32,893 bases of DNA from Clostridia bacterium (GTDB lineage: Bacteria; Bacillota; Sulfobacillia; DUSP01): positions 1 through 32,893 of the forward strand of contig DUSP01000020.1 of assembly GCA_012842575.1 (NCBI GenBank), in the 5' to 3' direction. Position numbers and translations under genes: made by a program. This document shows positions 12,422-23,286 of the stretch, piece by piece (within the stretch, counting starts at the first letter, position 1; the number at the start of each line of letters is the position of its first letter). The notes under the pieces are model-generated. The model had not been told where the DNA came from. It was given only the letters and a program-made list of their open reading frames with translations, and did no database searches.

Positions 12422-14725
12422 TCACGGCGCTTCAACTGGCTCAACTGGCTCAAATACCATACCCGTATTGGCATTTACGGCAACGACGCTTCCGTCACCG
12501 AGACTCACGAACCAAGCAGGGTAAAGGAACTCAGAAGACTCGCCATTGGGCAGCCCGAAATAGCCCAGGTAAATGCCCTCCACTCGCACGGCCTTGCCGT
12601 AATTTTCGCCGGCCGCCCTTTTTGTGGCCTTCCAGTGTTCCACCAGCGAGCGCAAGGCGTCTTGAACCCCTAGCGTACGCATCCTTCCCCGCGGTTCTGC
12701 ACCGGGAGACGGAACGCGGCGTTCGTACCAGGAAATGCCCTCCTCAGAAATCACTACTTCAATCGGGGGCTCTGCATTATGCCCGAAAAACACTGGCATG
12801 GTTCCAATGGCGGCCGAAAACGCCATCCTAAGGCCTTGTGGGTTTTCCGCCCCGGCGGCTCCTCTGATTTCTTCGCCGAAATCCCAGAGCAAGGAGTTAG
12901 GCAACCATCCGCCGTGTGAGTTCACGAACTCTGCCGAAAGGGACAGTGCATCCAACAGGGCCGGACGCCTTTGAGACAAAGCGGATACCAGATTCACCGA
13001 TTGTGGCGGCGCCGTATATTCTATCATCCCGCAGGGGTACACCCTCAGGCCTCTCCTTCCGTCCGTATAGATTACGGCACCATCCTTTTCTTCTATCTGA
13101 CGTAAGACCGAAAGGTCTATAAAAAACGAACGCAACATACTCTCCAGCGCCTTTGGCGTAGGAGTCTCCCAAGTGATGCCCAAAGGACCGGTCCGCGGAG
13201 GCCTTTCAAGTACGTAAAGGCCTGACGGGATGCGTAAAATTGGGGACGGGAAGGATTCGATCTCTTCTGCCAAAAGGCTCGTAGGATACTCTTTCTTTAG
13301 CACCCTCTTGAACCGGACCTCCTCGGCGCGCATCGGCAACCTGACGTAGTCCCCGCCGGGAATACCCTCGTTTGCGCCCCGTACGACCTCAGCCCATACT
13401 CCCACGGCCTTTCCGTTTCTTGCGTCTTTTCCGATTTCCCCGGTTTTCTCGCTTTCCCTGCCTGCTATGCTCTCTTTGCTTTCTCCGCTTTTCCCGCCCT
13501 CTCTGTTTTCTACGGTTTCTCCGCTCTCTCCGCTTTTCCCGCTCTCCCCGCCTTCTCCACTTCCTCCGCCTTCCCCGCTTTTCTGCGCCTTCGCTCGTGG
13601 ATCCTGTTGTGTCGGCGAGGGTGCACTGTCAGCAGCGGACGGTTCGTGGGCAATGATTATTCTGCGCACCTGTACCGACCATTCCGGTCCTGAAAGGTCG
13701 TAACCTACCGCTTTGAAAAACTGGTCAAGGGGGATGGGTCGCATGAATATGAGTTCGATGCCCTCCGCGCCCCTTAGGGACTCGAGCTGGGCGGGCGTAA
13801 GCGCACTCGTTTTATTGTCGCCACCGCCGACACCTTGTCCGGTCCCTTCCTTTGAGGGTCGAGTTGCGGAACCTCCCGTGGCCCCCTTGGTTTCGAGCTG
13901 CGAGCCGCTTTCGATGGCTTTTCCTGCCGGACCCCCGCCCGGACCAGCTCCTGCCGGACCCCCGACTGCACCCGCAGCGCCAGCGCTTTGGGACGCTTGC
14001 ACCTTCGAAGAGACATCCGCGACAGCTGCGGGCACGGGGCATTGCAGCCCTATGTCTTTGAAGAATTGACCGTCCTTATAAACGTCGTCGAAAACCTGAC
14101 TTCCATAGGTGAGGAGATACTGCTTTTCCCCGTCGACCCTAATTAGCAATTGAAAAGGCGAGAGGGCTTTGACCGGAGTGAGACGGGCGACACCTTCGAC
14201 GCCTCGTGATGCACCCGGCCCCTTTTCGACGCCGCCTTCTCCACCACCTTCCCCAAGCCCATCGGAACCGGATGGTGTGACATCGGAACCGCCTGGCGTT
14301 GGCGTGAGGCTCGGCGAGCCGCCGGGCATCCTTTCCGCGCTTCCCCAGAGATGCCATCCGGTGTCCGCTGCGGCATCATTCGATAGGGTCCCCGTAAGCC
14401 CCTGTGACCCCGTCGGCCCGCTCTCCCGCCCCTGGGGTAGCGGCGAAAAGGCAATCTCGGACCCAAACCATAAATACCAAGTAAAGACGAGGCTCATCCC
14501 CACGAGCCCGACCAGGACCCAGGTCTTTATCACTTCTATTGTGTCGGGTCGAATTTGGATGCGCTTACCGAAGGGAAACCAGGCGCCACGTTCTGGCCGC
14601 GACCCTTGCTTCAACCCTTGCGGCAACCCTCGTAACCATCCATCGTGCACGCCTCGAGGTGACCCTTGTAATGATCCTTCCCGCAATGCTGGCGGTTCGG
14701 TTTTCCTGATTGCCCCATCACTCAA
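12422..14725 (-). CDS. yycH: WalK regulatory protein YycH (WalH), enlarged
   Basis: Second WalK accessory protein, anchored by one transmembrane helix (about residues 66-86, VIKTWVLVGLVGMSLVFTWYL) with the bulk outside. Family-like blocks include LSPFQLLIRVDGEKQYLLTY, GIELIFMRPIPLDQFF and a C-terminal VRVEGIYLGYFGLPNG...LYPAWFVSLGDG. At 767 residues it is far longer than the usual 450 or so. The extra length is low complexity: a Gly/Ser/Pro linker at about 95-190, a Gly/Ala-rich stretch at 225-305, and a Gly-Glu-Ser repeat region at 370-445. The cytoplasmic N-terminus also carries loose QGSPRG/LRGLPQG repeats. The start is a TTG overlapping the walK stop by eight bases, with GGAGG 12 bases upstream, so translation is probably coupled. 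Confidence 0.82.
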   Translation of the reverse strand: MSDGAIRKTEPPALREGSLQGSPRGVHDGWLRGLPQGLKQGSRPERGAWFPFGKRIQIRPDTIEVIKTWVLVGLVGMSLVFTWYLWFGSEIAFSPLPQGRESGPTGSQGLTGTLSNDAAADTGWHLWGSAERMPGGSPSLTPTPGGSDVTPSGSDGLGEGGGEGGVEKGPGASRGVEGVARLTPVKALSPFQLLIRVDGEKQYLLTYGSQVFDDVYKDGQFFKDIGLQCPVPAAVADVSSKVQASQSAGAAGAVGGPAGAGPGGGPAGKAIESGSQLETKGATGGSATRPSKEGTGQGVGGGDNKTSALTPAQLESLRGAEGIELIFMRPIPLDQFFKAVGYDLSGPEWSVQVRRIIIAHEPSAADSAPSPTQQDPRAKAQKSGEGGGSGEGGESGKSGESGETVENREGGKSGESKESIAGRESEKTGEIGKDARNGKAVGVWAEVVRGANEGIPGGDYVRLPMRAEEVRFKRVLKKEYPTSLLAEEIESFPSPILRIPSGLYVLERPPRTGPLGITWETPTPKALESMLRSFFIDLSVLRQIEEKDGAVIYTDGRRGLRVYPCGMIEYTAPPQSVNLVSALSQRRPALLDALSLSAEFVNSHGGWLPNSLLWDFGEEIRGAAGAENPQGLRMAFSAAIGTMPVFFGHNAEPPIEVVISEEGISWYERRVPSPGAEPRGRMRTLGVQDALRSLVEHWKATKRAAGENYGKAVRVEGIYLGYFGLPNGESSEFLYPAWFVSLGDGSVVAVNANTGMVFEPVEPVEAP

Positions 14726-16655
14726 AGTTCGGCTCGACCTCCGGCAGAGTGAAGCTGACCTTCGTCCCCTTACCCTCGGCGCTTTCGATCCATATACGGC
14801 CCCCGTGGGCCTCCACTATCTCTTTGGCTATGGCCAGGCCTAACCCGGTTCCACCCAACTGTCTAGACCTGGCTTTATCGACGCGGTAGAAACGCTCAAA
14901 GATCCTCGGTATGTCCTCTTCGGGGATGCCGATGCCCGTATCCTCTACTTCCGTGATGACTTCCCCCTCGCATTGGTGCGTCCTTATGACGATCCGCCCG
15001 CCATCTGGCGTATAGTTGATGGCGTTGGAGAGAAGGTTGAGGAGCACCTGTTCGATCCGGTCTCTATCCACTAAGACCGTCGCGCGAGCGTCGGGCGGCA
15101 GTGAAGAGAACTCAAGCGTCTGCTGCTTCGCGGCGGCTGCCGGGTATATTTTCTGGACGGATGAGTGCACGATATCGTTCAAGTTCACGGGCCGCTTCTC
15201 CCAGTTCGGGGCCTCGTATTCGAGACGGGAAAGGTCTAAAAGATTGTTCACGAGCCTCACCATGCGGTCCGTCTCCTGATTCACGACCTCAAGGAACTGG
15301 CGGCTCACCGTCTCATCCTCCAAGGCGCCGTCGATCAGAGTCTCTACGTAGCTTTTGATGGCGGCCAGGGGGGTGCGGAGCTCGTGGGACACATTTGCCA
15401 CGAATTCCTTGCGAAGGGACTCCAGGTGCTCCTCTTCACTGATGTCGTGAAGAACGACGACCGCCCCTGAACGCCCGGACTCCCTGGTTCCGACCGGCGC
15501 CAAATAAGCGCGCAACACGCGCCGATCCCTTTCGGACCCTTCTTTTGCCGGAACCCTTATGTCAACAACGCCGAGACCTCGTTCTTCTTCCCGGATCTTC
15601 GAGATATATGAGCCTATCGCCTTTTTCGCATCGGGGTCGTGTACCAAATCGACCAGGTTAACGTGCTCGCTCACGGTAATTTCCGATCGCTCCGGTACGT
15701 TCAACATCCGTCGGGCCATGTTATTCATCAGGATGATGGCCCCCGAAGGGTCGACTGCAACTATGCCATCGGTCATATGGACGAGGACTGCTTCAAGCCT
15801 TGCTTTTTCGCTGGATATCTCCTTCAGGGTCTCGCGAAGCCTCGTCGTAAGGTAGTTGAACATGCCGCCAAGACGGCCGATTTCGTCGTTCTCTTTGACC
15901 ATAATCACCTGGTCGAAGTTCCCGTTTGCCATCAGGGCGGCTTTGGCGGTGAGCTCCTGGATCGGCCTGGTTATGGCCCTCGCTACCCCCAATCCCAGGA
16001 TGAGCGCGATGACAAGCGAGATCACCGTGGCAGAAAATAGAATTGATCGCACGTCTCCCAAAACCGAATATATCTCTTCGAGGGAACCGATGACGTAAAC
16101 GAGCCCGGCCACATGGGTGGCGTCCTCTTCTTCGTCGGACATGCCCGACCGCCCGGTTACGGGAAGTGCAAAGTGAAATAACCTTTCCCCGGTTGAAGGG
16201 TTTATTCTTTGTTCCTTCGCCTCGTTGCCGCTCAGGGCTCGTGTTATGGCGGTTCCTATGGTCATCCTTTCGAATTCCGTCGGGTTTATATCGGATGTGG
16301 CGATAAGTGCTCCCGAGGCATCGAAAACCCCTATATGGAACCCTGATTGCCTTCCGAAGGCCTGAAGCAACTGTTCGACCTCGCCGCTTACTCCTGGGGG
16401 TGGCTCCCCCTTTAAGGCTAGGGCTCGGGAGTAAACGGTTGGGTTCGAGTGAGCGTTACTGCCCTCTCGGGCTTCGGATAATGGGTAGCGCTCGAGAAGC
16501 CCCGCCAAAACTCTACCCTGTGAGGTCAAGGTCTTTATAAAACCTGCGAGGTAGTATTCCTCGAGGGATTGTAGTAGGAAAAAGCCCACGAATTGGATGG
16601 CGAGCAGGATCAGCAATACATATACCAGCGTGAGCTTGCCGCGAACGCTTAACAT
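14718..16655 (-). CDS. walK: Sensor histidine kinase WalK
   Basis: Essential cell-wall sensor kinase of Bacillota, partner of WalR. Order of parts: transmembrane helix 1 (about 9-30), an extracellular sensing domain of PAS/Cache size (31-203), transmembrane helix 2 (about 205-225), HAMP (226-278), PAS (about 280-400), then HisKA with phospho-acceptor His424 in VANVSHELRTPLAAI, and HATPase_c with N-box Asn544 (NLLSNAINYTP), G1 box DTGIGIPEED and G2 box GGTGLGLAIAKEI. The ATG start follows TAGGA at six bases. It starts 33 bp after walR and overlaps yycH by eight bases. All catalytic motifs are intact. The assignment as WalK rests on architecture plus the YycH/YycI neighbours. Confidence 0.95.
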   Translation of the reverse strand: MLSVRGKLTLVYVLLILLAIQFVGFFLLQSLEEYYLAGFIKTLTSQGRVLAGLLERYPLSEAREGSNAHSNPTVYSRALALKGEPPPGVSGEVEQLLQAFGRQSGFHIGVFDASGALIATSDINPTEFERMTIGTAITRALSGNEAKEQRINPSTGERLFHFALPVTGRSGMSDEEEDATHVAGLVYVIGSLEEIYSVLGDVRSILFSATVISLVIALILGLGVARAITRPIQELTAKAALMANGNFDQVIMVKENDEIGRLGGMFNYLTTRLRETLKEISSEKARLEAVLVHMTDGIVAVDPSGAIILMNNMARRMLNVPERSEITVSEHVNLVDLVHDPDAKKAIGSYISKIREEERGLGVVDIRVPAKEGSERDRRVLRAYLAPVGTRESGRSGAVVVLHDISEEEHLESLRKEFVANVSHELRTPLAAIKSYVETLIDGALEDETVSRQFLEVVNQETDRMVRLVNNLLDLSRLEYEAPNWEKRPVNLNDIVHSSVQKIYPAAAAKQQTLEFSSLPPDARATVLVDRDRIEQVLLNLLSNAINYTPDGGRIVIRTHQCEGEVITEVEDTGIGIPEEDIPRIFERFYRVDKARSRQLGGTGLGLAIAKEIVEAHGGRIWIESAEGKGTKVSFTLPEVEPNFE

Positions 16656-16688
16656 TCGTCGTCCTACCCTTTAATGGCAGTGCCTGTC

Positions 16689-17468
16689 TTATACCCGCTT
16701 GAAGAAATAACCCACCCCTCTTTTCGTTTTGATGTACTCGGGCTTCGAGGGGTTTTGTTCCACCTTTTCACGAAGTCTCCGGATCGTCACGTCAACCGTA
16801 CGGGTATCGCCGTAGTATTCGTATCCCCACACTTCGTCGAGGAGTACCTGCCTTGTAAAGATTTGGCCCGCGTGCGCTGCCAGGAAACGCAAGAGCTGAA
16901 ACTCCCTCTGCGACAGGTATGCGGTCTTGTCCTTTGACCTTACCTCGTAGGAGTTCGGATCTATGATAAGATCTCCCACGTGGATCGGCTCAAGAAGTCC
17001 TGCCAGCGAAGCTGTGCTTCTTGGCGCCTCGCGCCCGGACGAATCGTCCTGACCTCCGCCAACCGAGCCATCCTCAGGTTCCAAGTACGGAGGCTGGGAG
17101 GCCCTTCTCAGAAGGGCTCTGATTCGGGCGAGGAGCTCACGAGGCGAGAAGGGCTTGGTCACATAATCATCAGCCCCTAGTTCGAGACCTAGCACCTTGT
17201 CGACTTCCTCTTGCTTCGCGGTGAGGAGTATGATGGGAACGTTAGAAACCCGCCGGATCTTCTGACACACCATGAAACCGTCTATTTTGGGCAGCATTAT
17301 GTCAAGTACAATGAGATCAGGAGCCTCGCTATCCACCTTCTCCAAGGCTTCTGGCCCCGTAGTCGCAGAACAGACAGTGTATCCTTCTTTTTTGAGATTG
17401 TAGGTCAATATATCGATAATAGGCTTTTCGTCGTCGACTATCAGGATCTTTGGGCCTTGTTCAGTCAT
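16689..17468 (-). CDS. walR: Response regulator WalR (OmpR/PhoB family)
   Basis: DNA-binding response regulator phosphorylated by WalK; in Bacillota it controls autolysins and wall metabolism. The receiver domain starts at ILIVDDEKPIIDIL, with Asp56 as phosphorylation site (VLDIMLPKIDG) and the conserved LTAK Lys. The C-terminal winged helix runs from about 160 to 259 (REFQLLRFLAAHAGQIF, RTVDVTIRRLREKVE, KTKRGVGYFF). The linker between domains is about 25 residues longer than usual and rich in Gly, Ser and Asp. An upstream GTG (17480) lies in the ribosome binding site GAGGTGG; the ATG at 17468 at eight bases is the start. It is the first gene of the operon. Confidence 0.96.
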   Translation of the reverse strand: MTEQGPKILIVDDEKPIIDILTYNLKKEGYTVCSATTGPEALEKVDSEAPDLIVLDIMLPKIDGFMVCQKIRRVSNVPIILLTAKQEEVDKVLGLELGADDYVTKPFSPRELLARIRALLRRASQPPYLEPEDGSVGGGQDDSSGREAPRSTASLAGLLEPIHVGDLIIDPNSYEVRSKDKTAYLSQREFQLLRFLAAHAGQIFTRQVLLDEVWGYEYYGDTRTVDVTIRRLREKVEQNPSKPEYIKTKRGVGYFFKRV

Positions 17469-17488
17469 GCAATACACCACCTCGAGCG

Positions 17489-17619: not shown

Positions 17620-17814
17620 TCAGTTGTATTCTAGGATAGCAAGACCTATTCCTTCCCGCCGCGAAGGGATGTTTACATAAATCTTTGGGGCCGGCGTAGG
17701 AACAAATTCGTTGTTAACGGGACCCGGCCTGGCTGAACGGGCTCTGGGGTGGGCTCCGGGGTACGTTCCAGGCGGCGTAGGAACAAATTCGTTGTTGACA
17801 GGACCCACGGCCAT
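17620..17814 (-). CDS. Possible small Pro-rich protein with two GPVNNEFVPTP repeats
   Basis: A 64-codon open frame upstream of walR on the same strand. The peptide GPVNNEFVPTP occurs twice (about residues 4-14 and 31-41), joined by a Pro/Arg/Gly linker; no transmembrane segment is visible. A related string, GPNNTLFPTPKPK, opens the M23 peptidase encoded at 20074-21648. There is no usable ribosome binding site: AAGG directly abuts the ATG. The alternative is non-coding DNA carrying a 33-bp direct repeat that happens to be open. I do not recognise a family, and coding status is unproven. Confidence 0.3.
   Translation of the reverse strand: MAVGPVNNEFVPTPPGTYPGAHPRARSARPGPVNNEFVPTPAPKIYVNIPSRREGIGLAILEYN
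17693..17806. repeat. 33-bp direct repeat pair, 81 bp apart
   Basis: The sequence starting GGCGTAGGAACAAATTCG occurs at 17693-17725 and 17774-17806 with two mismatches. Each copy centres on AACAA-ATTCG-TTGTT, an inverted repeat with a five-base centre, which could serve as an operator. Both copies are also in frame in the small ORF on the minus strand. Confidence 0.75.
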
Positions 17815-17853
17815 CCTTATTATTTAACTCAAGCCGATTAACCCGTACTTAGC

Positions 17854-17959
17854 TTCGATGACCGAATATAAAGTGGGGACCTCAGACCTCATATTAGATG
17901 GGGGCCTCGCGAAGCGGTAGGCAAGCCGCTCCAGTCATTCGATAACTGAATATCAAATG
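17854..17959. repeat. 22-bp direct repeat pair before the lysine riboswitch
   Basis: TTCGATGACCGAATATAAAG plus two bases (17854-17875) recurs as TTCGATAACTGAATATCAAA plus two bases (17938-17959), 84 bp apart, with four mismatches. The second copy ends one base before the hairpin that precedes the riboswitch. Their role is unknown; they may mark a duplicated promoter region. Confidence 0.5.
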
Positions 17960-17973
17960 CCTCATCTCGAGAA

Positions 17974-18163
17974 GAGGTGAGGTAGAGGCGCGGGTCGTCA
18001 TGAGTAACGCAGAGGAGAAAGGCATCGAAGAACCTGCGTGAAGGGGGCACCCGCCGAAGCCCGGGGGAGGCTCACGAACCCTGGCTGGGGTTGCATCGAA
18101 TAGGTGCAAGACTGTCATCGAGGGGGTTGCCCTTGGACCCTCGATGGAGCGCTACTTCACTTC
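17974..18163 (+). promoter_or_regulatory. Lysine riboswitch (L-box) controlling lysA
   Basis: The core shows the conserved L-box strings in order: GGTAGAGGCGCG, ATGAGTAACG, GGAGAAAGGCATCGAAGAAC, CCGCCGAAGCCC, CTGGCTGGGGTTGCATCGAA, TAGGTGCAAGACTGTCAT and GGAGCGCTACTTC. The P1 stem forms between 17974-17985 and 18152-18163 over 12 pairs, two of them G-U. A terminator follows at 18211-18234 and lysA at 18432. By family knowledge, lysine binding stabilises P1 and favours termination. Just upstream, CCTCATCTC at 17960-17968 can pair over nine bases with 17974-17982, which are part of the P1 5' strand. Confidence 0.95.
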
Positions 18164-18210
18164 AAGGGTGTCGCGATGGGGTGTTGATTCAACGCCTTGA
18201 TTTGCTTTGG

Positions 18211-18240
18211 AACACACCCTTTCGGGTGTGTTTTGCTTTG
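18211..18240 (+). terminator. Riboswitch-controlled intrinsic terminator
   Basis: AACACACCC (18211-18219), loop TTTC, then GGGTGTGTT, followed by a T-rich tail TTTGCTTTG. Nine pairs with a U-tract place it as the expression platform of the lysine riboswitch. Upstream, GGTGTTG-ATT-CAACGCC (18179-18195) and TCAAGG/CCTTGA form further stems that could take part in switching. Confidence 0.85.
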
Positions 18241-18247
18241 TGCATTC

Positions 18248-18385
18248 ATGGCTTTGAGCGTTTTGGCATCGCTATTTGCGTCATTTACCTCATCAATGAA
18301 TACGTTTTGGGCGCTATTACCGTTATTCCTTGGTTTGCTGGGCTCTGCCGGCCTGTATAGACTTTGTCGGGCTCTACACTTCTAA
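18248..18385 (+). CDS. Possible small hydrophobic protein upstream of lysA
   Basis: A 45-codon ORF between the riboswitch terminator and lysA. It is strongly hydrophobic (MALSVLASLFAS, then FWALLPLFLGLLGSAGLY) and ends in the basic YRLCRALHF, as a one- or two-helix membrane peptide might. No ribosome binding site is seen before its ATG, which argues against translation. It would be controlled by the same riboswitch as lysA. No family recognised. Confidence 0.25.
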   Translation: MALSVLASLFASFTSSMNTFWALLPLFLGLLGSAGLYRLCRALHF

Positions 18386-18431: not shown

Positions 18432-19838
18432 ATGACGGACGAACGAGGACTTGGGCTTACTTCAGGCGTATTACCGCAGGGGCTTCCTGGAACCATGAAG
18501 GTGAATGCTCGCGGCCACTTGGAAATCGGCGGCGTCGACACGGTGAAGCTCGCGAAGCGTTATAAGACTCCGCTTTACGTGTTCGACGAAGCCCTGATTC
18601 GACAGCGCTGCCGTGAGTACCGGACCGCCTTTGAGAAGAATTACCCGAAGTTCTCAATAGCTTACGCGGGCAAGGCATTCATGACCATGGCCATGGTCCG
18701 CATCGTAGAGGAAGAAGGCCTGTACCTCGATGTCGTCTCAGGAGGGGAGCTATATACGGCTCTGAAGGCACAGTTCCCCCCGGAAAGGATATTCTTCAAC
18801 GGAAACAACAAGAGCCCTGATGAAATTGAGATGGCGCTCCGTTCTGGCGTAGGCAGGATAATCGTGGACAGTTTTGACGAGCTCGATCTCATCGAAAGCA
18901 TGGCCGGCGACCTCAAGGATGAGAAGGGGAACGCTCGAAGGGTGCCGATCCTTTTGCGCGTGACCCCAGGGGTAGAGGCGCATACACACCATTACATTCA
19001 GACGGGTCGGGAAGATAGCAAGTTCGGTTTCAGCATCGGAGCCGGGAGCGCCATGGCCGCGGTGATGCGAGTACTCGCCAGTGATCGATTCGACCTGAAG
19101 GGAATCCATTGCCACATAGGTTCCCAGCTCTTCGACTTTGAACCCTTTGCTATAACCGTGAAGAAGATGCTCGACTTCCGCCGCGAGGTGTACCGGTCAA
19201 CCGGGTACATCTTACACGAAGTGAATTTCGGGGGAGGTCTCGCCGCAAAGTACACCGAGCACGACAACCCCCCTTCCGTCGGGGAATTCATCCAAGCCCT
19301 TACCTCAAAAGTCGTCGATGTCTGCAGGAGTACCGACATGCCCCTTCCGCACATTGCGGTCGAGCCCGGTCGCTCCATAATCGCTGAAGCGGGAACCACC
19401 CTTTATACCGTCGGGACGGTAAAGCACATTCCCGGAGTCCGTACTTACATCGCCGTGGACGGCGGCATGACAGACAATCCTCGATACGCGCTTTATCAAG
19501 CCGATTACAGAGCGTTGGTAGCCAATAAGGCCACCGTGCCCGCAGAAGTTCACTACGCAGTCGCCGGGAAGTGCTGTGAGTCAGGGGATATGTTGATCAT
19601 GGATGCGGTGTTGCCCCCGGTCAAGCCGGGAGACATCCTCGCCGTATTGACCACAGGAGCATACTGCTATTCGATGGCGTCGAATTACAACCGGATACCG
19701 CGGCCGGCTGCGATCTTGGTAAACGGAGGGGTGTCCGAAGTCATCGTGGAAAGAGAGACATATGACGATCTCGTTCGGAAAGACCGCATACCGGCGCGCC
19801 TGTTAGCCAAAAAAAGCGTGGTACTTTCGTACCACTGA
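18432..19838 (+). CDS. lysA: Diaminopimelate decarboxylase
   Basis: PLP enzyme that decarboxylates meso-diaminopimelate to L-lysine, the last step of lysine synthesis. Fold III alanine-racemase-like barrel with PLP-binding Lys81 (FSIAYAGKAFMT) and the EEGLYLDVVSGGELYTAL block that distinguishes DAP decarboxylases. HCHIGSQLF, the glycine-rich NFGGGLA, VEPGRSIIAEAG and the catalytic-Cys motif KCCESGDML follow. The ATG start follows GGGGG at eight bases. The N-terminus is about 20 residues longer than usual; an internal Met22 has a poorer ribosome binding site. Expression is under the upstream lysine riboswitch. The last codons also encode a terminator for the opposite strand. Confidence 0.97.
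   Translation: MTDERGLGLTSGVLPQGLPGTMKVNARGHLEIGGVDTVKLAKRYKTPLYVFDEALIRQRCREYRTAFEKNYPKFSIAYAGKAFMTMAMVRIVEEEGLYLDVVSGGELYTALKAQFPPERIFFNGNNKSPDEIEMALRSGVGRIIVDSFDELDLIESMAGDLKDEKGNARRVPILLRVTPGVEAHTHHYIQTGREDSKFGFSIGAGSAMAAVMRVLASDRFDLKGIHCHIGSQLFDFEPFAITVKKMLDFRREVYRSTGYILHEVNFGGGLAAKYTEHDNPPSVGEFIQALTSKVVDVCRSTDMPLPHIAVEPGRSIIAEAGTTLYTVGTVKHIPGVRTYIAVDGGMTDNPRYALYQADYRALVANKATVPAEVHYAVAGKCCESGDMLIMDAVLPPVKPGDILAVLTTGAYCYSMASNYNRIPRPAAILVNGGVSEVIVERETYDDLVRKDRIPARLLAKKSVVLSYH
19809..19835 (-). terminator. Minus-strand intrinsic terminator inside the lysA 3' end
   Basis: Read on the minus strand: GTGGTAC, a GAAA tetraloop, GTACCAC, GC, then seven Ts. This is a near-ideal terminator for transcripts coming from the M23 peptidase gene at 20074-21648, giving it a 3' untranslated region of about 240 nt. 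It lies entirely within the last nine codons of lysA. On the plus strand there is no T-run after it. Confidence 0.8.
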
Positions 19839-20073: not shown

Positions 20074-21648
20074 TTACTGATACAACTTCAGAGGATCTAC
20101 CGGTCGGCCATCAATTCGCACCTCGAAGTGAAGATGCGGTCCCGTCGCGTTGCCGGTTCGGCCCACACGCGCGATGACCTGTCCCTTCTTAACCTCTTCC
20201 CCGGCACTTACCAGGTTGGCGGAGTTATGGCCGTATATGGTCAGCACGTCGTCACCGTGGTCGATAAATATCACCTTTCCATAGCCACCGTAGTAGCCCG
20301 AGAATACTACGATTCCACTATCCGCCGCCACTACGGAAGTCCCCGTTGGAGCAGCGATATCGATGCCTTGATGAAAATCCCTTCGTCTTGACCCGTAGTA
20401 CGAAGTGATAATCCCTCGCGCAGGCCACACGAATTTCCCAGTGCCCTTACCCGAAACCACACGAGACCCTCTGGCCACAACCGCCTCAACCGGTTCCTCG
20501 ATTATTTCCGAGGAAATAGTCTCTCGCGCGGTCTCGATTCCGTTCGCTCTGGTGATCTGATAGACGATTCTCCTGATGCCGTCCTTCCCCTTTTTTTGGG
20601 TTACAGTCTGCCATGGCCAGAGACTATCGTCCGTAACATACCTTACGGGGTGCGGAATACTCTGCTCTACTACTTTTTCTTCCACGGTATGAACCGTAAG
20701 GAAGGGTTCCGGCACCACGAGGTTAAGCGTCTGGCCTACCTGGAGGACGTCCCCCTTTACCTCCGGGTTTGCTCGACGTAGGTCTTCCACGCTCATTCTG
20801 CTGCGCGACGCTATCGACCACAGGGAGTCGCCACGAGATACTTTGTATGTCCGTATTCGGTCCGTACCTCTTAAAAGAACGCGCTTTGCGGTTTCAACGT
20901 CGGTTATCGATGTGGGTTTGACCTTCTTTTCAGCAATGGACACGTTTTCGCTCAGACTCACTTCCTTTACCGTAACGCCCGGTTCTTTAGCGGCCGCCGA
21001 TACGAACATGTCCTTCAAGCCTTGAAGCACTCCTTCGGCTTCTTCTCTCGAGGCCAAGGTGACGACGTCGCGCCCGGAAACATTGATGACATACCCTGTC
21101 GCCACAAATGCTATCTTATCGGCCAGGATCCTCGCCAGTTCCGTTTTGTTGTGGACGATTTTTGCCCCTTCCGATCTAGCGGGACTTACACGAACCTCAT
21201 TAGCCACCTCAAGCTGGGTGCCGTACTGCCGAGATTTCAAGACCATTACCGCATCGAGCGCCTCTTCGGCGACACAGGTGTTCTCGACGAAGGCCACCGG
21301 TTCTCCATCGACGATTATCTGATAGCAGGTGGGTACAAACTGACGGGGTAGAGAGAGGAGGCATAATACGGCTACGGCTCCTGCGATGAACGCCACCGGT
21401 ACGAGCTTTCTTAAGAGTGATGCTCGGAGCCCGCCGCCTATTGCTGAGGACCTAATACGCATAGGACGCACCTTGGAACCGTATGCGCGCATCCTGCCAA
21501 CAGAGGTCGTCACCACACCCCAGGTCGACGCAAGCACACTCAAGGCATGTCCTAGTGATTTCCAATATAAACCGGGCCGACTTTTTGGCTTCGGCGTCGG
21601 AAATAGCGTATTATTCGGTCCGGTTACCATCCCCGGCTTAAGCGACAT
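20074..21648 (-). CDS. LysM-G5-M23 cell-wall endopeptidase
   Basis: Peptidoglycan hydrolase, probably membrane tethered. A long basic cytoplasmic N-terminus (1-80, including GPNNTLFPTPKPK) precedes one transmembrane helix (about 82-101). A region of about 160 residues follows, then a LysM wall-binding domain (about 267-311, TYKVSRGDSLWSIASRS), a G5 domain (about 315-395) and a C-terminal M23 metallopeptidase. The zinc ligands are visible in FHQGIDIAAP (H, D) and the HLHFE motif. The ATG follows GGGGGAAGG. It is divergent from a second M23 gene and converges on lysA. It most resembles Bacillota M23/LysM proteins that remodel the wall in growth or sporulation; which of these applies here is unknown. 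Confidence 0.92.
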   Translation of the reverse strand: MSLKPGMVTGPNNTLFPTPKPKSRPGLYWKSLGHALSVLASTWGVVTTSVGRMRAYGSKVRPMRIRSSAIGGGLRASLLRKLVPVAFIAGAVAVLCLLSLPRQFVPTCYQIIVDGEPVAFVENTCVAEEALDAVMVLKSRQYGTQLEVANEVRVSPARSEGAKIVHNKTELARILADKIAFVATGYVINVSGRDVVTLASREEAEGVLQGLKDMFVSAAAKEPGVTVKEVSLSENVSIAEKKVKPTSITDVETAKRVLLRGTDRIRTYKVSRGDSLWSIASRSRMSVEDLRRANPEVKGDVLQVGQTLNLVVPEPFLTVHTVEEKVVEQSIPHPVRYVTDDSLWPWQTVTQKKGKDGIRRIVYQITRANGIETARETISSEIIEEPVEAVVARGSRVVSGKGTGKFVWPARGIITSYYGSRRRDFHQGIDIAAPTGTSVVAADSGIVVFSGYYGGYGKVIFIDHGDDVLTIYGHNSANLVSAGEEVKKGQVIARVGRTGNATGPHLHFEVRIDGRPVDPLKLYQ

Positions 21649-22224
21649 TGGCCTTCCCCCGTAACATAATATGTATGAGTATGCATAATGCCATCATGAT
21701 GTCATGCGTCAGAAGGCGTCTGGATGAGACAACAGACGTGAGGGGAAGATATTACGTGCCCTAGCCGTTTTCTTTATGTCAGATGGTCAATGCGGAACCT
21801 GACCGGCTCTACAGAAACACGGGTTTATAATTCTCCGCCAACCAACAATTTCCTCCTCTTCCTCTAAAAAAAATACCTGGTAAATAAAAGGCTCCTCTGT
21901 CATTATCCCCTAAAATATCCACATTATACCTAATACCTATACGGCTTATGAGTAGCGGGTACAGCTTGTGAATAGATACCAAGTCGAACTAGGCACCGTG
22001 CCCACCGAGGTGTAGGTAAAGGCGGAATCTGTGGTATACACCCGCGCTCCTACCGCAATATAGGCCTTTCTCGGATATTAGGCCTTTCTCATGCGTTATA
22101 TGTGCGACTCGTATGGTCGTCCATATTTTCTAGCATTGTCGTCTTATCGCAATATGTTCATGTTCTTTACGGCTTTGGGCTGCATATCTATGAATGTACG
22201 GATTCCCCGTAGGTGGTTTCCTCG
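21649..22224. other. 576-bp divergent spacer between two M23 peptidase genes
   Basis: No gene seen. Contents: a CATCATGATG palindrome (about 21692-21701) near the minus-strand gene; an AT-rich stretch around 21820-21960; the 12-mer TAGGCCTTTCTC repeated at 22061-22072 and 22079-22090; and a weak promoter before the plus-strand gene. I looked for the c-di-AMP (ydaO) riboswitch that often precedes such hydrolases and found none of its conserved strings. Confidence 0.5.
22166..22194 (+). promoter_or_regulatory. Weak candidate promoter for the plus-strand M23 gene
   Basis: TTTACG (22166-22171), a 17-base spacer and TATGAA (22189-22194), each four of six to consensus, end about 30 bases before the start codon. 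The spacing is right but the hexamers are poor. Confidence 0.3.
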
Positions 22225-23286
22225 ATGAAGATATACGCCTTAGCATTGGTTTTCTGCTTGATTGCCGGGTTCATCATCGGCATGGCAGATGCCAATACTC
22301 GGTTTATGATGCTAACGCAAAAAATGGAGAAAGAAGAAGGCGCGGCCGAAGCGCTAAATTCGGGTACGCGACAACATACTACGGCTGACGTTTCTCCATA
22401 TACGGCCCGAGTTTCTCCGTCTCAACCTTCTTCACCCAAGGCCTCCCTTGGGGAATCGGGTACGCCGCCGGAAGCCGATGAGCCGGACTCCCCGGAGGAA
22501 GTTGTACCCGCATTTTCTCAAAGGACCGAGCCGCTTGTGATCACCCACACCGTGCGCCGCGGCGAAACCCTTTCCTCCATCGCGAAGACGTACGGAACCG
22601 ATACCAAAAGCATAGCGTATATCAATAAATTGGGCGATCCTGACGTAATAGAGGCGGGCAGGAAACTCAAGGTTTTGACCAGGCCCGGGGTGTTCCGGCG
22701 GGTTAAGCCGGGTGACACACTCTGGTCACTGAGTCTCGAGCATCAGGCCGAGGTAGAAGATGTAATTTCCATAAACGGTATCAGCGACCCGGACCTCATT
22801 GCCCCTGGAGACCTGCTTCTCTTACCGAGGGCCGTACCTCAAAACGGGCGCGCAGGTAGAAACGCCTTTATCACGTCGGTATCTCGCAGGAGCCGTCCAG
22901 AACTGACGGGTTTCATCTGGCCGCTCGCCGGCCCGATTACTTCCCCCTTTGGTCCACGATGGGGAAGAATGCATTATGGAGTAGACATCGCAGCGCCCGT
23001 CGGCACTAAAGTAGTGGCCGCGAAGGACGGCAAAGTAGCTCACAGTGGTTGGTACGGAAGTTACGGGAAGGTTGTCATATTGGACCACGGGGACGGGGTG
23101 CAAACCGTTTACGCCCATTTGTCCTCAATATCCGACCAAACCGCAAGACGTGGAGACGTCGTTCGGCAAAACCAGGTTATCGGACGCGTCGGGAATACCG
23201 GTTTTTCGTTAGGTCCACACCTTCATTTCGAGATCCGCAGTTACGGAAGACCCGTGGACCCACTTACCCTACTCCCAACACCGTGA
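22225..23286 (+). CDS. Double-LysM M23 cell-wall endopeptidase
   Basis: 353-residue secreted or membrane-anchored peptidoglycan hydrolase. The hydrophobic segment IYALALVFCLIAGFIIGMA (about 3-21) is a signal or anchor. A Ser/Pro-rich linker precedes two LysM domains: about 107-152 (THTVRRGETLSSIAKTYGT) and 155-200 (RRVKPGDTLWSLSLEHQ). The C-terminal M23 domain has zinc-ligand motifs HYGVDIAAP and HLHFE, and ends FEIRSYGRPVDPLTLLP. A GTG at 22213 lies inside the AGGTGG ribosome binding site; the ATG at 22225, eight bases further, is the start. It is paralogous to the divergent minus-strand peptidase but lacks the G5 domain and has two LysM copies. Confidence 0.93.
   Translation: MKIYALALVFCLIAGFIIGMADANTRFMMLTQKMEKEEGAAEALNSGTRQHTTADVSPYTARVSPSQPSSPKASLGESGTPPEADEPDSPEEVVPAFSQRTEPLVITHTVRRGETLSSIAKTYGTDTKSIAYINKLGDPDVIEAGRKLKVLTRPGVFRRVKPGDTLWSLSLEHQAEVEDVISINGISDPDLIAPGDLLLLPRAVPQNGRAGRNAFITSVSRRSRPELTGFIWPLAGPITSPFGPRWGRMHYGVDIAAPVGTKVVAAKDGKVAHSGWYGSYGKVVILDHGDGVQTVYAHLSSISDQTARRGDVVRQNQVIGRVGNTGFSLGPHLHFEIRSYGRPVDPLTLLPTP

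Follow-up and report, generated by a model that had tools for sequence, protein, structure and literature searches.

The question raised by this locus is what is done by a strand that lies just upstream of a lysine riboswitch (L-box), a sensor by which many Firmicutes turn off the making of lysine, and is able to pair with the 5' strand of the riboswitch's own P1 helix. The window, by which is meant the whole stretch of DNA analysed (32,893 nucleotides), had been described from its letters as carrying an L-box ahead of lysA, and profile searches agree with that description. The model RF00168 (Lysine) matched 17975-18162 on the + strand with 106.1 bits against a gathering score of 30, over positions 1-182 of 182, and this was the sole match in a draft genome of 2.47 Mb in 220 contigs. 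The aptamer stands 5' of a lysine biosynthesis gene, identified as lysA by TIGR01048 (468.7 bits, cut-off 297.9), for which an in-frame ATG at 18495 is a possible alternative start. An intrinsic terminator (18211-18239) stands between aptamer and gene, giving a terminator-type expression platform. The nearest relatives found for the source genome share its order only; Candidatus Acetocimmeria, a named member of the same class, is placed in Bacillota. As one part of the best overall explanation, set out below, the element is probably a lysine riboswitch acting as an OFF switch for lysA, lysine binding being predicted from the sequence. A hydrophobic open frame of 45 codons (18248-18385), with no ribosome site evident by eye, lies between the terminator and lysA. 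Genes resembling walK and walR, encoding a two-component system, are divergent from lysA, and two genes for M23-type peptidases lie on its other side (14718-17480 and 20074-23286). The features needed for the argument are these:

17795 to 17823, + strand: candidate promoter, TTGACA - 17 nt - TATTAT, from a consensus match alone (11/12)
17952 to 17968, + strand: strand A, the arm 5' of P1, able to pair with either B or D (pairing; covariation in relatives)
17958 to 17984, + strand: anti-P1 hairpin A:B, 11 pairs (17958-17968:17974-17984) with loop 17969-17973 (fold; covariation in relatives)
17975 to 17985, + strand: strand B, the P1 5' strand, 11 pairs with 18152-18162
17975 to 18162, + strand: lysine riboswitch aptamer (RF00168, 106.1 bits)
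18152 to 18162, + strand: strand C, the P1 3' strand, pairing with B
18164 to 18171, + strand: AAGGGUGU, the complement of terminator positions 18214-18221 and a possible further antiterminator strand (sequence)
18175 to 18188, + strand: strand D, 14 pairs with A (17952-17966, one bulge), overlapping the terminator-pairing strand (fold; pairing)
18178 to 18198, + strand: local hairpin of D, GGGGUGUUG AUU CAACGCCUU, competing with A:D and D:E (fold)
18211 to 18239, + strand: intrinsic terminator, stem 18211-18219:18224-18232 plus U-rich tail (sequence; fold)
18432 to 19838, + strand: lysA, diaminopimelate decarboxylase (TIGR01048, 468.7 bits)

The sequence-only reading had proposed that nine bases, CCTCATCTC at 17960-17968, pair with GAGGTGAGG at 17974-17982. 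This was borne out, with one U.G pair, and the hairpin proved to be longer, extending through G-U and U-A pairs to 17958:17984 to make 11 pairs around a GAGAA loop. The local fold of 17940-18000 had an energy of -21.9 kcal/mol (z -3.1) and 2 of 200 shuffles folded as well. The hairpin alone reached -17.7 kcal/mol, the best among 60 dinucleotide shuffles of the upstream side being -13.1. Since P1 in the window consists of the 11 pairs 17975-17985:18152-18162, G17985 is the one nucleotide among the 11 of the P1 5' strand that stays free, the other 10 being taken up by the hairpin, so the overlap that had been claimed with this strand holds for nearly its whole length. It had also been argued that the hairpin is made first, excludes P1 and has to be displaced. 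This is right. In 81 of the 84 loci compared, the hairpin fold was predicted to be stabler than that of P1, with a median gap of 4.7 kcal/mol.

A transcription start downstream of 17968 would leave the competing strand out of the RNA, and such a start is unsupported: the + strand has a single strong promoter-like site, the TTGACA at 17795 with TATTAT at 17818-17823, from which we infer a +1 for the lysA transcript near 17830. Of 92 related loci scanned, with no shuffle control, 89 scored at least 8.5, and in 73 of these the best promoter-like -10 element began 21-40 nt 5' of the arm; the arm is therefore probably inside the RNA, close to its 5' end. The candidate promoter of the window sits further upstream of the arm than the 21-40 nt of its relatives. 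The same region contains a 34-nt direct repeat (17692-17725 and 17773-17806, 94% identical), whose second copy carries the TTGACA -35 element of the candidate promoter and whose first copy has TTAACG. A small hairpin, CCTCAT ATTAG ATGGGG (17887-17903), whose arms resemble strands A and D, lies some 60 nt 5' of strand A itself.

The distribution of the hairpin was surveyed in 160 oriented L-boxes from Bacillota alone, of which 137 were left after 23 near-duplicates had been dropped. The 160 comprised 39 loci from the window's class, the 30 best of the phylum, 80 hand-picked from the matches listed (mostly one per genome) and 11 named loci. The last came from a scan of 40 of 80 named lysA loci, which gave 12 with an L-box, L040 being dropped as apparently the same contig as L025. 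As the phylum matches were taken from the best-scoring ones listed, weak L-boxes are under-sampled. A hairpin was counted when it reached -6 kcal/mol or lower and covered at least five of the last seven nucleotides of the P1 5' strand, and expected counts came from dinucleotide shuffles of the upstream side. This energy measure replaced a looser one (mean pairing probability above 0.5), by which 113 of 137 loci were positive with 74.7 expected. Where the P1 5' strand ended in GGUAG, 93 of 99 L-boxes had the hairpin (7.8 expected) and 86 of the 99 had it at -10 kcal/mol or lower (0.7 expected); 6 of the 99 had none by the -6 kcal/mol measure. L-boxes with other endings, 22 of the 38 being GAUAG, had it once (1.0 expected). 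Within the window's class it was present in 29 of 37 L-boxes (3.3 expected), and the same measure applied to the 30 best-scoring SAM and 30 best-scoring TPP riboswitches of that class gave 0/30 (0.4 expected) and, for the 29 usable TPP loci, 1/29 (2.8 expected). Bacillota L-boxes of the GGUAG type, so far as sampled, have the upstream hairpin as a rule. It had been remarked that no L-box with this arrangement was known; no description was found in the papers searched, and what had looked like one unusual locus belongs to a widespread group.

Some loci depart from the common pattern. In four from one family of the class (L010, L033, L036 and L037) a GC-rich upstream hairpin abuts P1 without overlapping it, possibly a third arrangement. 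The single non-GGUAG L-box with a strong anti-P1 hairpin is L119, the lysA leader of Desulfotruncus alcoholivorax, in which the arm CUAUUCUCC faces the P1 strand GGGGAGAGUAG, a large compensated change. Downstream genes named by profile were lysA (in the window and in L023), dapB, asd, lysX and a lysine/arginine-type ABC binding protein; one of the six downstream genes tested had no profile match at 1e-20.

Covariance analysis of the upstream helix in relatives, which had been put forward as a way to check it, showed that A:B covaries beyond the limits of P1. The arm was anchored on a CCUC motif alone, so that 6 of the 99 GGUAG loci, which lack CCUC, were left out, and this choice of anchor guarantees its pairing with the two G of GGUAG; the rule of taking the nearest CCUC misplaces A in L006. 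The P1 3' strand was located in 91 of 93 loci. P1 ends at about position -9 (paired in 73 of 91); at the positions further out, matches to the P1 3' strand number 41, 31 and 40 of 91. At B positions -10 to -12, outside a 9-bp P1, the A:B pairs were formed in 88/92, 79/86 and 69/77, numbers matched by 0 of 2000 shuffles for each pair. Because these positions pair in the hairpin and poorly with the P1 3' strand, they are compensated for the hairpin and not for P1. In a register test of five pairs 409 of 441 cells (93%) were paired, falling to 40-54% when the strands were slid by 1-3. When arms were swapped among 94 loci the pairing energy with the locus's own arm lay beyond all 2000 permutations, and in a strict set of 72 A:B beat all 5000 permutations, within GC strata too. 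At position -4, P1 has a G.U wobble in 74 of 91 loci, where the arm offers C. On the best aptamer tree there were 19 and 20 changes, never in the opposite direction; this tree is weak, as its supported branches hold 3 independent pairs, a number insufficient for a test, and relatedness is only partly controlled.

With P1 forced in the window fold, the freed arm paired with 18175-18188, and A:D was accordingly tested across the family, with 90 loci for A:D (72 strict), 84 for the energies and 74 (60 strict) for D with the terminator. Against the 40 nt after P1, A of the strict set outdid every one of 5000 permutations, whether or not these were stratified by GC. Its pairing with this region reached -10 kcal/mol or lower in 61 of 72 (28.8 expected) and -14 or lower in 27 (3.9 expected). 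In 82 of 90 loci no more than 19 nt separated the P1 3' strand from the start of the best partner D. Terminators were found in 80 of the 90, at a median of 34 nt after P1, and in the 60 strict loci none of 5000 permutations equalled the pairing of D with the terminator hairpin of its own locus, GC strata included. Set against its shuffled self D gave a mean z of just -0.92, D having been located through its pairing with A. The signal was confined to these partners: none was seen for A with the region +90 to +130 (2563/5000 permutations), with its own upstream region (4869/5000) or with the terminator itself (1958/5000), nor for segments neighbouring A and one aptamer segment with the same targets. 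In seven loci (L170, L179, L186, L192, L195, L215 and L222) sequence resembling A (GAAUGCUCAU is one example) occurs in the loop and 3' arm of the terminator and pairs with D, a likeness suggestive of competition for D between A and the terminator. In the lysA leader of Laceyella sacchari (L108), a cultured organism, A:B and A:D are both strong.

By complementarity alone the window arm has both sides of this arrangement, A:D with 14 pairs and D:E, D with the terminator, at a z of -3.6; the A:D complementarity is modest, being reached by 39 of 3000 shuffles. The window's platform scored -30.1 kcal/mol as D's own hairpin plus terminator against -24.1 for D:E, which is thus 6 kcal/mol weaker. Over the whole element, A:B plus terminator (-121.1 kcal/mol) was lower than the OFF (-118.9) and ON (-108.8) folds, the terminator being preferred throughout. 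Since D:E is the weaker fold, antitermination would be kinetic, with D:E forming before the 3' arm of the terminator has been made.

At the family level the helices A:B, A:D and D with the terminator are supported by covariation, and P1 is supported as in the Rfam model; the order of switching is what we infer from here on. The reading favoured, as the likely one, is that A is a messenger strand which is released from B by P1 and takes D, whereupon the terminator forms. In the emerging RNA A would pair with B in the anti-P1 hairpin, the helix that covaries in relatives. Without lysine this hairpin would persist because, by predicted energies, it is stabler than P1, and D would be available as an antiterminator, pairing with the terminator hairpin and allowing lysA to be transcribed. 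With lysine the aptamer would close and, as established riboswitch behaviour suggests, C would displace A from B so that P1 forms. The released A could then pair with D, lengthening P1 outward, shutting in the AAGGGUGU strand, which in the OFF state would sit between the two helices, and removing D from the terminator, which is present in the window and would form, stopping transcription. The ligand signal would thus leave the aptamer by its 5' side, with the release of A, unlike the P1 3' strand route of the other L-boxes sampled.

The two kinds of L-box differ in the behaviour of the P1 3' strand. Pairing of this strand with the downstream 80 nt was matched by 1603 of 5000 permutations in 90 GGUAG loci and by 0 of 5000 in 37 other L-boxes, both within GC strata, and the latter figure stayed at 0/5000 in GC strata after stricter thinning to 31. 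The signal in the other L-boxes, not clearly seen in the GGUAG set, makes two wirings of one aptamer visible. A shorter P1 3' strand with 40 nt gave 145/5000 in the GGUAG loci, or 351/5000 in GC strata, and there may be a weak classical contact in them; the corresponding z in the window was -0.1. A hairpin between the P1 3' strand and D, good by eye in some loci, failed at the family level.

These numbers bear on the suggestion of the sequence-only reading that the hairpin delays or tunes lysine sensing. On that account A:B would merely delay or weaken P1 and set the lysine threshold, the signal passing through the P1 3' strand and A:D being a by-product. Competition with P1 is indeed what the greater stability of A:B in 81/84 loci indicates, the P1 3' strand is predicted to fold into an antiterminator in two loci of one genus (L006 and L012), and the weak signal of the shorter strand points the same way. 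The covariation of A with D and of D with the terminator, beyond all 5000 permutations, is left unexplained, however, and the P1 3' strand signal is strong in the wrong set of L-boxes (1603/5000 in GGUAG loci against 0/5000 in the others), so that a tuning role is considered unlikely. Quite improbable is a clamp, in which A:D would prolong P1 outward and so steady the aptamer once closed, with A:B as its ligand-free alternative and the output still passing through D. Its attraction is the position of A:D directly outside P1, with D as close to the P1 3' strand as was found in 82/90, and the ability of A:D to stack on P1 in the window fold with P1 forced, but a pure clamp has no need of the covariation of D with the terminator hairpin (0/5000). 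That the hairpin arises by chance or serves generally to stabilise the 5' end is barely credible, for although GGUAG-type P1 strands are G-rich and pair easily (113/137 against 74.7 by the loose measure), the energy measure (93/99 against 7.8), the compensated changes and the near absence of the hairpin from the 38 other L-boxes and from the SAM and TPP riboswitches of the class all oppose it, and pure chance is ruled out by the hairpin energies, compensated changes and register test.

Taken beyond the single locus, the messenger-strand reading implies that a common variety of Bacillota L-box is wired in the opposite sense to the textbook, P1 formation ejecting the messenger strand, which removes the antiterminator; on balance this seems likely. 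The relay would have been overlooked because GAUAG L-boxes are wired otherwise and because P1 is where the Rfam model starts. If this is true, signalling through the P1 3' strand is no general rule for a large share of a well-known riboswitch class, and constructs or models that start at P1 omit a regulatory strand. It would also provide a natural example of ligand-gated strand displacement during transcription, in which the median gap of 4.7 kcal/mol between the folds could plausibly be paid by ligand binding.

No description was found of a lysine riboswitch in which an arm 5' of P1 binds the P1 5' strand, and no lysine-dependent experiment came to light; an earlier mention is possible in the founding L-box papers (10.1093/nar/gkg900, 10.1073/pnas.2133705100). 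Excerpts of PMC5234074, PMC11477304, PMC11476745, PMC2258182, PMC7824784, PMC5847336, PMC4448311, PMC3649979, PMC8124236 and PMC10907184 contain no such arm. In most ligand-free riboswitches, according to a passage of one of these, P1 bases pair with sequences of the expression platform (PMC2258182). The term 'anti-P1 stem' is used in an excerpt of another for a long-range downstream pairing in the Escherichia coli thiC TPP riboswitch, and a particularly large anti-P1 stem is predicted for E. coli lysC (Supplementary Fig. 13; PMC5234074). The thiC partner (around 146-154) lies downstream and is made late, with access to the ribosome site as the output (PMC5234074, same excerpt), whereas the partner in the window is a local upstream strand, made first, that has a second partner 3' of P1.

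Cotranscriptional strand exchange, as proposed here, is reported for the Bacillus subtilis yxjA purine riboswitch, another switch that acts on transcription; the title and start of the abstract mention no upstream messenger strand (PMC9756952). The apoB state of the Vibrio vulnificus add adenine riboswitch resembles the window in having a ligand-free fold that is incompatible with the aptamer, with an alternative helix P1B. It differs in being a translational ON switch with a heterogeneous ensemble, and the excerpt describes no second partner of the displaced strand in a terminator platform (PMC5847336). The classical L-box, with a P1 of the GAUAG kind (RF00168), shares with the window its aptamer family, its lysine genes and a downstream intrinsic terminator. 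In the non-GGUAG L-boxes sampled, however, it is the P1 3' strand that covaries with the downstream region (0/5000) and the upstream arm occurs in 1/38, whereas in GGUAG L-boxes it is the upstream arm that covaries with the region after P1.
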